Source: Myxococcus stipitatus (GTDB lineage Bacteria; Myxococcota; Myxococcia; Myxococcales; Myxococcaceae). Taken from it: a DNA stretch of 64,000 bases. The stretch covers positions 372,001 through 436,000 of the forward strand of contig NZ_JAKCFI010000005.1 in NCBI RefSeq assembly GCF_021412625.1, written 5' to 3'. The notes beneath the pieces were generated by a model. It was not told the origin of the DNA and searched no databases. It worked only from the letters and a program-made list of their open reading frames with translations. Made by a program: the position numbers and the translations under genes. Positions 55,990-59,267 of the stretch are shown one piece after another (the first letter of the stretch is position 1; the number at the start of each line of letters is the position of its first letter).

Positions 55990-56793
55990 TCACAGCTCGA
56001 GCGTCGACGCGGCGACCTCGTCGGGCGCCGGGACGAACAAGGCCGCATCCGGGCCCACGCCTCCGAAGGCGAGGGCTTCGATGCGATTGTTCCGGGGCGC
56101 ATGCGGCGGCCGGGGGATGCACTCGGCATCCGACTGAACCAACACCAGCCCCGGGCGGGCCGCCAGGAGGCGCTGGGGGTTCAGCGGCGTGTACCCCGCC
56201 GCCGCCTCGAAGCCGTATTGGTAGCGGTAGCGCGTCACGGGGGTCGAGCCGCACCGTGTCGCCGTCCGGAGCCCACCCGACGAGAAGGAGGGGTCGCTCG
56301 AGGGCCCCATGCCGTCATATCTGCCCCCCTTGGAGGTCGTGGTGGCCGTGACCGTCGTCCCCGGCATCAACACCTCCTGGCAGGTCACCATCATGGCCGC
56401 GTAGGGCTGGGCGACGCGCTCGAGCAGGGCGAGCGGCTTGCCCGTCACGGACACCATGCGCACCCGCGCCTCCTTCTCCTCGGGAGGGAGGCCATCCGGG
56501 CTCAGCCGCGTGCGGCACTCCAGCGACTGGCCCTCCTCCTGGGTGACGAAGACGACCTGGAGCTGGGTGACGAAGCGAGCGCCCGAGGTCTCCGCGCGGT
56601 CGAGGAACTTCAGCACCAGATCGGTTCCATCCTCGTTCGCGCCGAAGGGCAGCGAGATGGCCCACGGCTTCAAGCCCGTCTGCCGCGCCAGCTCCGCCGA
56701 GGAGACGACGACCCGTGACTCCGACCCCTGCGCCGGCCCATGGGCACAGGCCGACGCGAAGAGGAGCAACGACGCCAACACGCAACGCCCCAT
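55990..56793 (-). CDS. Lipoprotein of unknown function
   Basis: 267 residues. Lipoprotein signal (LASLLLFASACAHG). The mature part has the look of an extracytoplasmic beta protein (VTQLQVVFVTQEEGQSLECR, VRMVSVTGKPL) with four further cysteines that may form disulfides and a Thr-rich stretch TTVTATTTSKGG. No family recognised. ATG at 56793 follows GGGAG by 7 bases. It is transcribed towards the hairpin at 55947-55983. Confidence 0.75.
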   Translation of the reverse strand: MGRCVLASLLLFASACAHGPAQGSESRVVVSSAELARQTGLKPWAISLPFGANEDGTDLVLKFLDRAETSGARFVTQLQVVFVTQEEGQSLECRTRLSPDGLPPEEKEARVRMVSVTGKPLALLERVAQPYAAMMVTCQEVLMPGTTVTATTTSKGGRYDGMGPSSDPSFSSGGLRTATRCGSTPVTRYRYQYGFEAAAGYTPLNPQRLLAARPGLVLVQSDAECIPRPPHAPRNNRIEALAFGGVGPDAALFVPAPDEVAASTLEL

Positions 56794-57025
56794 GCATTCA
56801 CTCCCGAGCGAGATGAATCGAAGGGCCAGGGTAACAGCCCCGTCACGCCCCAGCCATCCCGCCCTCCCCGGGCAACCATCTCGCCGGGCCTCCGATATGA
56901 AACCCGGCCACGGGCGTTTCCTCGGGGCCCAAGGCGCCCCGGGCCCGGCGCGCGGGCGTCCCTGTCCACGCTCCACGGGGCCCGCGCGCCCTGGCCGGCC
57001 GTGGCCCCACCGCGTGAACGCCCCT

Positions 57026-58228
57026 TCACGACGCGCGTCCCACCCGTGTTCGCTTCACCCACGCCACGGCCGCGCGGACGTCCGCCTCCAGGTGGATGCG
57101 CAGCTCCGCGCGCTCCCGAGGCTCCGTGCGCGAAAGGACCTCCAGGGGATGCAACGTGGCCAGCGTCGCCTCCGCCCATGGAGACGGCAGGACCTGTCCC
57201 CGGTTCAGGCGTGAATGGAACCCGTTTCCCTGGAGCGCCCGCGTCGCCGCGTCTCCCAGGGTGATGATGATCCTCGGACGCACCGCCGCGACCTCTTCCT
57301 CCCACCACGGCCGGCACGCCGCCACTTCCGCCGCGCGGGGCTCCGCGCCCACGAAGTGCTTCACCACGTACGTCAGGTACAGCTCCGCGCGCCGCAACCC
57401 CGCGCGTGACAACACCTCCTCCAGCAACCGGCCCTCCTGCCCGATGAATGGGCGCCCCAGACGGTCGTCGTCCACTCCGGGCGCGTCCCCCACCAGCATC
57501 ACCGCCGCCCCCGGGGGCCCCTCGCCGCGCACGCCCCGCGTCGCTCCTCCATGCAGGGGACACCGGCCGCATTCGCTCAGCGGCTCCCTCCGCGCGGGCG
57601 CCCGCGCGCCGCCGGGCACGGCGTCTGGCGCGGCCCCGGGGCCGAAGGTGAGCCGGTCCAGGTCCCAGTGCGCGCTCGCCGCCGGCGTCAGCAGGCTCCA
57701 GCGCAGCGTGGAGAAGCGCCGCACCAGGAACCGCGCGACGAGCCGGACGACGCGGTGCTCCGGTTCGTGCCACGCGACATACGTCTCCAGCCCGTGCGCC
57801 ACGACCCGGCGGAAGCGGACCCGGGTCACCACCTCCCGCATCTCCCGGCGCACGTCTCGCTCCAGCCCGCGCAACCGCCGGACCTCCAGGTCCGCGTCAC
57901 GCGACAACAGGCCCCGCTCCCCATGCGTCAGGCGCCACAGCACCCGGTACAACAGGTCCCAGCGCTCCGGGGCCGTGTGGCAGAGGACCTTCTCCGCCAG
58001 CGCCAGGAAGTCCCTGGGAACGACGGGCGCGGCCAGCCAACCGGCCCCACCGTCCCTCCGCCTCCCGCTCCGCCGCGGCGAGGCCTCCTCGAAACACACC
58101 CACTCCGGCGGCGCCTGCCGCGCGAGCAGACCGCGCGCCACCTCCTGGAATGACACCAACTCCGGCTCCACGCAGACCCGCACGCCGACCTCCGGGAAGA
58201 AGGGAAGCACCGGACCCGGTGGACACAC
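57026..58228 (-). CDS. DUF4130 + UdgX-like uracil-DNA glycosylase fusion with shortened active-site loop
   Basis: 400 residues. Residues ~10-185 form the DUF4130 domain often fused to, or encoded beside, UdgX; residues ~215-400 are a family-4/UdgX-type glycosylase with Fe-S cysteines (ECGRCPL, AACRPW), motif A GDAPGVDDD followed by GRPFIGQEG, the UdgX signature Lys-His-Phe (VVKHF) and motif B LHPLEV. Between KHF and the EVAACRPW helix only 8 residues remain; the KRRIH loop with the histidine that traps uracil covalently in UdgX is absent. Activity is therefore uncertain: it could be an ordinary family-4-like glycosylase or inactive. GTG start with GGGAGGGG upstream; the start codon lies in a small hairpin (58215-58232). 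Confidence 0.85.
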   Translation of the reverse strand: MCPPGPVLPFFPEVGVRVCVEPELVSFQEVARGLLARQAPPEWVCFEEASPRRSGRRRDGGAGWLAAPVVPRDFLALAEKVLCHTAPERWDLLYRVLWRLTHGERGLLSRDADLEVRRLRGLERDVRREMREVVTRVRFRRVVAHGLETYVAWHEPEHRVVRLVARFLVRRFSTLRWSLLTPAASAHWDLDRLTFGPGAAPDAVPGGARAPARREPLSECGRCPLHGGATRGVRGEGPPGAAVMLVGDAPGVDDDRLGRPFIGQEGRLLEEVLSRAGLRRAELYLTYVVKHFVGAEPRAAEVAACRPWWEEEVAAVRPRIIITLGDAATRALQGNGFHSRLNRGQVLPSPWAEATLATLHPLEVLSRTEPRERAELRIHLEADVRAAVAWVKRTRVGRAS

Positions 58229-58298
58229 CGGGCCCCTCCCTGGAGGTTCCTACCCTCCCGGTCTGACACCCCCCGTCCCTCCCGTGGCGTCGGATGCG

Positions 58299-59267
58299 CT
58301 ACTCCTCCTTCGCGAGCGCGTCCACCGACTCCCGCAGCCCGTCCGTCCCCTCGAAGAAGGACTCCACGGACTGCGCCCGGACCAGCCGGAGCGAAGGCGG
58401 CAACAACGTGCGTGGGAAGTCCAGGGACGTGCTGAACGACTCGTTGCCCAGCAGGTCGTCCGCGCGGGACAGCGCCCCGAACACCAGCGTCACCACGACG
58501 AGCACCCGCACCAGCCGGCCGGACTCCCAGCGCGTCACGTATCGCAGGTGCCAGAACAGCCCCCAGCCCATCAGCACCAGGAAGCACAGGTGCTGCAGCC
58601 ACCCCAGCCCCGAGCCCACCGCCAGGCTGAAGCCGAGCAACGTGATGAGCGGCGGCAGCGCGACGGCCCCCAGCAACACCAGGGCCGCGATGGTCGCGTG
58701 CGTGCGGTAGTGGAACTGGCGCCGCGCGATGCGACTCGCCACCGACCAGCCCCCCGCCCACAGCAGCGTCAGCACCAGCGGCATCACCACGGCCACCGTC
58801 AGGCTGCCCCAGTCCGTGCGGCCGTAGTTGCCCAGGTGCGACTCCAGCAGGCTCAGGCCGAGCAGCGAAAGCATCGCCACCGGGAAGGCCCGGGCCCGCT
58901 CGAAGAGCCGCTCCCGGGGCGCGGCCGGCGCCTCGGCGATGACGGTGTCCGCGACGGCGTGGTCGCGCGAGCGGAAGCGCAACACCGTGTCGCCCACCGC
59001 CACCCGCGCGTCCGGCCCCAGCTCCATCTCCGCCAGCCGGGCCCAGGGGTCCACGCGCCACGTGCCGTTCTGGCTGCCCACGTCGCGCACCACCAGCACG
59101 CCGTCCTCGCGCCGCTCGATGCGCAGGTGCTCCGCGGACACCTTCGGGTCGTCCAGGATGACGTCGTTGGTGTACGCCCGCCCCACCGACACGGGGAAGC
59201 GCTCCAGCCGGTGGCGTGCGTCGACGGCGTCCCCCTCCAGCACTTCCAGGAAGATCACTTCGTCCAC
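58299..59267 (-). CDS. FHA-domain membrane protein
   Basis: 322 residues. An N-terminal FHA domain (VGRAYTNDVILDDPKVSAEHL...GSQNGTW, residues ~25-100) is followed by a linker and about five membrane helices (~135-270) and a C-terminal helix ending in VDALAKEE. FHA domains bind phosphothreonine, so this looks like a membrane-tethered reader of Hanks-kinase signalling. The GTG start at 59267 has GGAGGGG 5 bases upstream and overlaps the 3' end of the protease gene by 13 bases, so the two are coupled. Confidence 0.88.
   Translation of the reverse strand: MDEVIFLEVLEGDAVDARHRLERFPVSVGRAYTNDVILDDPKVSAEHLRIERREDGVLVVRDVGSQNGTWRVDPWARLAEMELGPDARVAVGDTVLRFRSRDHAVADTVIAEAPAAPRERLFERARAFPVAMLSLLGLSLLESHLGNYGRTDWGSLTVAVVMPLVLTLLWAGGWSVASRIARRQFHYRTHATIAALVLLGAVALPPLITLLGFSLAVGSGLGWLQHLCFLVLMGWGLFWHLRYVTRWESGRLVRVLVVVTLVFGALSRADDLLGNESFSTSLDFPRTLLPPSLRLVRAQSVESFFEGTDGLRESVDALAKEE

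Follow-up and report, generated by a model that had tools for sequence, protein, structure and literature searches.

According to PMC10359453, UdgX is believed to derive from family 4 of the UDGs by gain of a loop bearing a catalytic histidine. Mutants of Mycobacterium smegmatis UdgX (MsmUdgX) at this residue, His109, gain ordinary uracil excision, which is raised further by Q53A in the H109S protein (PMC10359453). Other MsmUdgX mutants are described in PMC10776899. The N91A and H178A proteins are folded and inactive, and N91A abolishes excision; F65A and K94A are unfolded; D59A and R107A are inactive with severely affected folding; and E52A/H109A is inactive. The same paper places a Lys at the Asn91 position in E. 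coli MUG. UdgX domains also occur fused to DUF4130 beside a gene of TIGR03916, a radical-SAM family whose name refers to its association with UDG. In the literature looked at on UdgX and DUF4130, as far as its available portions go, we found no description of the loop-less clade reported here, and a term search of PMC9266487 found neither UdgX nor DUF4130.

The fusion gene and its surroundings

The window, a 64,000-nucleotide stretch of Myxococcus stipitatus DNA, carries on its minus strand an open reading frame of 400 codons (57026-58228) that is open to 58228. Most intact relatives begin MRVxVxx (MRVxVEP type), so a GTG at 58186, from which the protein begins MRVCVEP, is the more likely start, and the probable DUF4130-UdgX-like fusion gene occupies 57026..58186. 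Both Pfam domains score above their cut-offs, with 59.8 bits against 27 for PF13566 (DUF4130) and 96.9 bits against 24.3 for PF03167 (UDG), and the KHF motif is present, which bears out the fusion recognized in an earlier note on this DNA. Three NCBIfam UDG models match the protein, each below its curated cut-off: TIGR03914, the best profile among them, gives 145.3 bits (cut-off 189.95), TIGR00758 115.4 bits (125.3), and NF040953 111.8 bits (250). TIGR03915 also remains below its cut-off (95.7 vs 112.25 bits) and matches over model positions 63-194 of 243, outlining a DUF4130 core at 57626..58027 (minus strand) from which the conserved C-terminal part is missing.

The UdgX-derived UDG domain lies at 57071..57586 on the same strand. 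Its CxxC pair (CGRC, 57560..57571), which we take to be iron-sulphur ligands, occurs among the 22 loop-less copies described below only in the window protein and its nearest relative, G016, which belongs to the same genus. Motif A (GDAPGVDDD, 57464..57490) keeps Asp59 and carries Asp for Glu52, Ala for Gln53, and Val for Asp56. Motif 3 (YLTYVVKHF, 57353..57379) has Tyr in place of Asn91 and keeps Lys94, His95, and Phe96; His95, presumably a cluster ligand together with the Cys residues, aligns with a Cys of the family-4 paralogue. The shortened loop VGAEPRAA (57329..57352) aligns at the place of the KRRIH R-loop. Motif B (HPLEVL, 57134..57151) retains His178 and is followed by Ser at the position of Arg184. 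The gap between KHF and EVAACRPW thus spans 8 residues, against 19 at the same place in the solved MsmUdgX chains (H109 mutants) and in the intact relative G020. No His, catalytic or displaced, is found in the aligned loop of the window protein or of G016. The earlier note was therefore correct about the lost loop and the deviating motifs A and B; changes beyond its account are a Tyr for Asn91, a Ser for Arg184, the loss of the C-terminus of DUF4130, and a missing radical-SAM partner.

Directly upstream of the fusion is a gene for an FHA-domain protein (58299..59240, minus strand), which appears by eye to be membrane-spanning. The 112-bp spacer between this gene and the probable fusion start (58187..58298, minus strand) folds marginally (z -1.9), with a GC-rich hairpin. 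A promoter and terminator scan of 56700-58700 found none. Downstream, at 55990-56790, lies what looks by eye like a putative lipoprotein gene; it has no Pfam match and is present in two copies in G016.

Within the fetched regions, most orthologues in the genus and in Citreicoccus have an aldo-keto reductase gene at one flank and trypsin and FHA genes at the other; none of these neighbors was seen for G010 in the 20 kb fetched, and for G002, G022, and G144 those of a single flank were seen. In 21 of the 22 loop-less copies 54-182 bp separate the FHA match from the start of the fusion match that follows it on the same strand; the remaining copy (G015) sits at a contig end. The five partner-less copies with a loop either have the FHA gene at 2.7-4.2 kb (three) or lack it in the 20-kb region (two), and the intact G020 has it at a distance of 5.7 kb from the fusion. 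Judging from these distances, the loop-less clade has also acquired a new gene context, in which the FHA gene and the fusion would be co-transcribed.

The genome of the window further encodes a standalone UdgX that scores above the TIGR03914 cut-off and has an RRVH loop, as well as a family-4 enzyme, a family-1 Ung, and a Mug, so that the repair of uracil need not depend on this fusion. A weak match, L004, is the sixth UDG-superfamily gene of this genome.

The loop and the radical-SAM gene in relatives

A TIGR03915 search of 195 genomes of the phylum yielded 44 with a match, of which 17 are full length and 27 truncated (25 from the genus of the window and 2 from a sister genus). Each of the 17 full-length fusions aligns with CxxC, GEQPGDxED, NAVKHF, an R-L-H loop, and HP..LR intact. 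Among the truncated fusions the loop is kept in five (G002, G010, G019, G022, and G144), with Tyr for its His in G019, and is absent in 22, comprising 20 from the genus and 2 from the sister genus. Another genome of the genus, G011, has no TIGR03915 match and was left unscored; its UDG fragment starts a contig, and its radical-SAM gene lies on a different contig with no DUF4130 after it.

A scan of a second collection (genome_contigs) gave the best 80 of 143 confirmed loci, 11 from the Myxococcus/Citreicoccus lineage and 69 from outside it; at least two of the latter (L134 and L171) are genomes already among the 17. The motif-3 stretch is missing or cut in seven of the outside loci, which were set aside. 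Among the 62 that can be read, all within these best 80 of 143, 61 retain an R-x-H loop, the exception being Paludisphaera soli (L176). Since relatives in the phylum (17/17) and outside the lineage (61/62) keep it, the loop belongs to DUF4130 fusions as a rule, and the loss seen in the Myxococcus/Citreicoccus lineage is derived. The same counts rule out that DUF4130 fusions generally lack the loop, the finding that the earlier note had said would undo its case; its other such condition, a catalytic His shifted elsewhere in the loop, did not hold either.

A sequencing or frame error is ruled out by G016, which has a loop of equal length and no internal gap. Replacement by a family-4 domain is ruled out as well: TIGR03914 is the best profile, synteny is shared, and a tree calculated without UDG columns points the same way. 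In this tree, built on 44 rows and 184 columns of the DUF4130 part only, one branch with support 100/98 unites the loop-less sequences (22, half of the phylum set), and the window protein pairs with G016 at 100/99. The clade of homologues sharing the deletion, which the earlier note had named as support for its idea, is therefore real, and a single loop loss would suffice to explain its 22 members. The term "UDG subfamily" is nonetheless too strong for it, because 20 of the 22 have also lost His178 and the CxxC pair.

The TIGR03916 radical-SAM gene lies 66-96 bp upstream, measured between matched stretches, in all 17 full-length copies, that of G065 being split in two. Where the fusion is truncated (27 genomes) the gene was not found, except as N-terminal stubs of about 26 residues in G022 and G144, and in the genome of the window TIGR03916 gives no match at E 0.001. 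The stubs (L010 and L062), which lie immediately upstream of the fusion, correspond to about the first 26 radical-SAM residues and continue in frame into DUF4130, so that they read as fossils of the gene deletion. One loss of the radical-SAM gene would also be enough for the distribution, on a weakly supported branch (57/79). Partner loss as a force that generally entails loop loss is ruled out by the five partner-less Myxococcus copies that keep the loop (Tyr for His in G019), by 11 of the 69 outside loci (L135, L137, L140, L163, L164, L175, L178, L190, L194, L196, and L200), all of which keep R-x-H and whose flanks as fetched, some of them ending at a contig edge, contain no radical-SAM match, and by Paludisphaera soli, where the loop is lost with the partner present.

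The Paludisphaera locus (L176:4013-5239) is a DUF4130-UDG fusion with a radical-SAM gene and the DUF4130 C-terminal motif, in which motif A is broken and the R-loop is gone; by its sequence it is an independent case of UDG erosion. Three acidobacterial loci (L175, L178, and L194) lack the DUF4130 C-terminal motif and, within the flanks fetched, any radical-SAM match, and keep the UdgX loop. In five others (L160, L174, L182, L185, and L187) a radical-SAM gene accompanies a DUF4130 to which no readable UDG motif 3 is attached, which suggests that the UDG domain is optional in such loci. L128, labelled Comamonas sp. KCTC 72670, carries a Myxococcus-type gene, and its label looks wrong.

Predicted fold, active site, and selection

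The AlphaFold model of the window protein has a mean pLDDT of 87.4 and a pTM of 0.55; the domains are mostly predicted with confidence and their mutual arrangement is not. The underlying alignment contained 30 of the 44 sequences and included intact relatives. Model residues 201-384, the UDG part covered by the structure comparison, superimpose on UdgX with Z 26.0 and an rmsd of 1.7 over 175 residues, indicating a UdgX fold. The model of the intact G020 is weaker (pLDDT 75.5).

To describe what the loop-less copies retain, we scored the columns that are invariant in the 17 intact copies; the values are means over 22 related copies, which are descriptive and not independent samples. The DUF4130 core keeps 84% of its 55 columns, and the DUF4130 C-terminus with the linker 1.6% of 25. 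Catalytic or Fe-S positions of the UDG domain are kept at 27% (17 columns) and its other positions at 54% (46 columns), with 84% in the C-terminal half and 42% in the N-terminal half. The window protein preserves a larger part of the active site than the other members of the clade. It has 10 of the 17 catalytic or Fe-S columns (CxxC, Asp59, Phe65, Lys94, His95, Phe96, the last Cys, His178, and Pro179) and has lost Glu52 (Asp), Gln53 (Ala), Asp56, Asn91 (Tyr), Arg107, His109, and Arg184 (Ser). It thus holds the fold residues Asp59, Phe65, and Lys94 and is without Asn91, whose Ala mutant is folded but dead.

Cross-linking of the window protein through His109 is excluded, as far as can be told from the residues present. 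Uracil excision is most likely lost too because Asn91 is also gone, an argument that leans on the published mutants. The earlier note had offered ordinary turnover, a changed base specificity, or binding alone. The first, which would be expected from the loss of His109 alone, is weakened because Asn91, Glu52, and Arg184 are changed beside His109, and binding alone is the best of the three. An active glycosylase, in which loss of the R-loop restored family-4-like turnover, possibly with a new base specificity through Tyr91 (His in G016), strikes us as unlikely. It could draw on the excision gained by H109 mutants of MsmUdgX and boosted in H109S by Q53A (PMC10359453), given that the window protein also has Ala at position 53; on the presence of His178, Phe65, Lys94, and an acidic residue at position 52; on the purifying selection described below; and on the Lys that MUG has at position 91. 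However, Ala in place of Asn91 abolishes excision and E52A/H109A is inactive (PMC10776899), the protein has neither the PPGN stretch of the family-4 paralogue nor the His of UdgX, and Arg184 is missing from both the window protein and G016. Furthermore, position 91 differs between these two sisters, unlike a fixed specificity residue.

All 22 loop-less frames are open over 366-423 residues. Between the window gene and G016, the codon model gives omega values of 0.099 for the UDG half (p 2e-15) and 0.114 for DUF4130, and site counting gives 0.26 and 0.37; the two methods differ, and for GC-rich genes omega can come out too low in codon models that use position-specific frequencies. Differences by codon position are 22/13/34 in the UDG half (p 0.008) and 16/16/24 in DUF4130 (p 0.32, not significant). 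GC by codon position in the UDG half of the window gene is gene-like (0.77/0.50/0.88). The pair shows no gap column in 400 shared residues vs 56 in the downstream spacer, but this argument for a maintained protein is weakened because the 112-bp upstream spacer is gap-free as well and 85% identical (95/112). For the UDG half the codon model, applied to 16 pairs picked from the 44 sequences, yields 0.09-0.22 in the other loop-less pairs and 0.04-0.07 in intact pairs; site counting, applied to 12 picked groups, yields 0.04-0.40 in loop-less and 0.04-0.20 in intact groups. Constraint on the loop-less UDG half is relaxed, not gone. In eroded copies the codon-position signal of this half is weak (G001/G021, p 0.15; G017/G024, p 0.17) and omega reaches 0.16-0.22 by the codon model and about 0.4 by site counting.

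The low omega, open frames, and gene-like GC argue that the protein is kept in the lineage of the window, where it is probably maintained; the case is weaker for the most eroded clades. We regard as improbable a relic on its way out, with a frame that owes its openness solely to the rarity of stop codons in GC-rich genes. Such decay would fit the stepwise loss across the genus, the weak signal and higher omega of the eroded copies, the gap-free non-coding spacer upstream, and the other Myxococcaceae that keep the radical-SAM gene only in pieces (G094, G109, G119, and G123). Against it stand the length of the frames in 22/22 copies, the low omega, codon-position signal, and gap-free alignment of the window gene with G016, its codon-position GC, and the 84% retention in the C-terminal half of the UDG domain.

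We think it somewhat probable that the gene encodes a UdgX-derived domain without uracil chemistry, kept as a non-enzymatic DNA-binding or scaffold module on a DUF4130 core. The window gene would then be the remnant of a radical-SAM / DUF4130-UdgX repair cassette. Comparison with relatives shows that an ancestor in the Myxococcus/Citreicoccus lineage lost the radical-SAM gene, the DUF4130 C-terminal part, and the R-loop, and that the fusion came to lie directly behind a trypsin-FHA gene pair; the order of these events is our reconstruction. The UDG domain is predicted to keep its fold, whereas cross-linking to DNA through His109 would have gone with the missing residue and uracil excision most likely with Asn91. 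Within the limits of the codon tests, the protein is still under purifying selection, most likely as the non-enzymatic module proposed here. Several findings count against this reading: with 10 of 17 active-site columns kept some chemistry is possible, MUG has a Lys at position 91, the partner and the loop have not always been lost together, omega by site counting is higher, and the DUF4130 codon-position test gives p 0.32. More tentatively, and we consider this rather unlikely, a self-sacrificing uracil-DNA cross-linker may have turned in this lineage into a non-enzymatic, possibly iron-sulphur-bearing DNA reader; with the radical-SAM partner lost and the gene then placed behind an FHA protein and a trypsin-like protease, it may act there as a damage-sensing adaptor.

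The states found in extant species read like the path from family 4 to UdgX taken backwards, although their order in time is our conjecture: the partner gone and the UDG active site still intact (G144), loss of CxxC (G022), loss of Asn91 and His109, and loss of nearly everything. Two questions become testable in the non-pathogenic Myxococcus, namely the role of UdgX and DUF4130 beside a radical-SAM partner, and what the UDG fold is kept for once its chemistry has gone.

Comparison with known systems

UdgX (TIGR03914; Mycobacterium smegmatis, PDB 6AIL) resembles the predicted fold of the window protein with Z 24.9 and an rmsd of 1.8. The two share CxxC, VKHF, ACRPW, and His178, with 37-40% identity in structural alignments. 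The window protein differs in the absence of the KRRIH loop (R107, H109), in GDAPG for GEQPG with Gln53 changed, in the replacement of Asn91, Glu52, Gln53, Asp56, and Arg184, and in a score below the TIGR03914 cut-off.

Family 4 UDG (TIGR00758; Thermus, PDB 1UI0) is also similar in fold (Z 24.4), and the window protein is like it in the shortness of the loop that leads from motif 3 to the last Cys and in Ala at position 53. It departs from this family in having His for the Cys of the paralogue, no PPGN, and Tyr for the Asn of motif 3; it is below the TIGR00758 cut-off, and its DUF4130 half places it inside the UdgX fusions.

The DUF4130-UdgX / radical-SAM cassettes (TIGR03915 / TIGR03914 / TIGR03916) have the same domain order as the window protein, and in G020 an intact cassette lies between the same FHA and aldo-keto reductase neighbors as the window gene. 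The window locus differs from these cassettes in lacking the radical-SAM gene, the DUF4130 C-terminus, and the R-loop.
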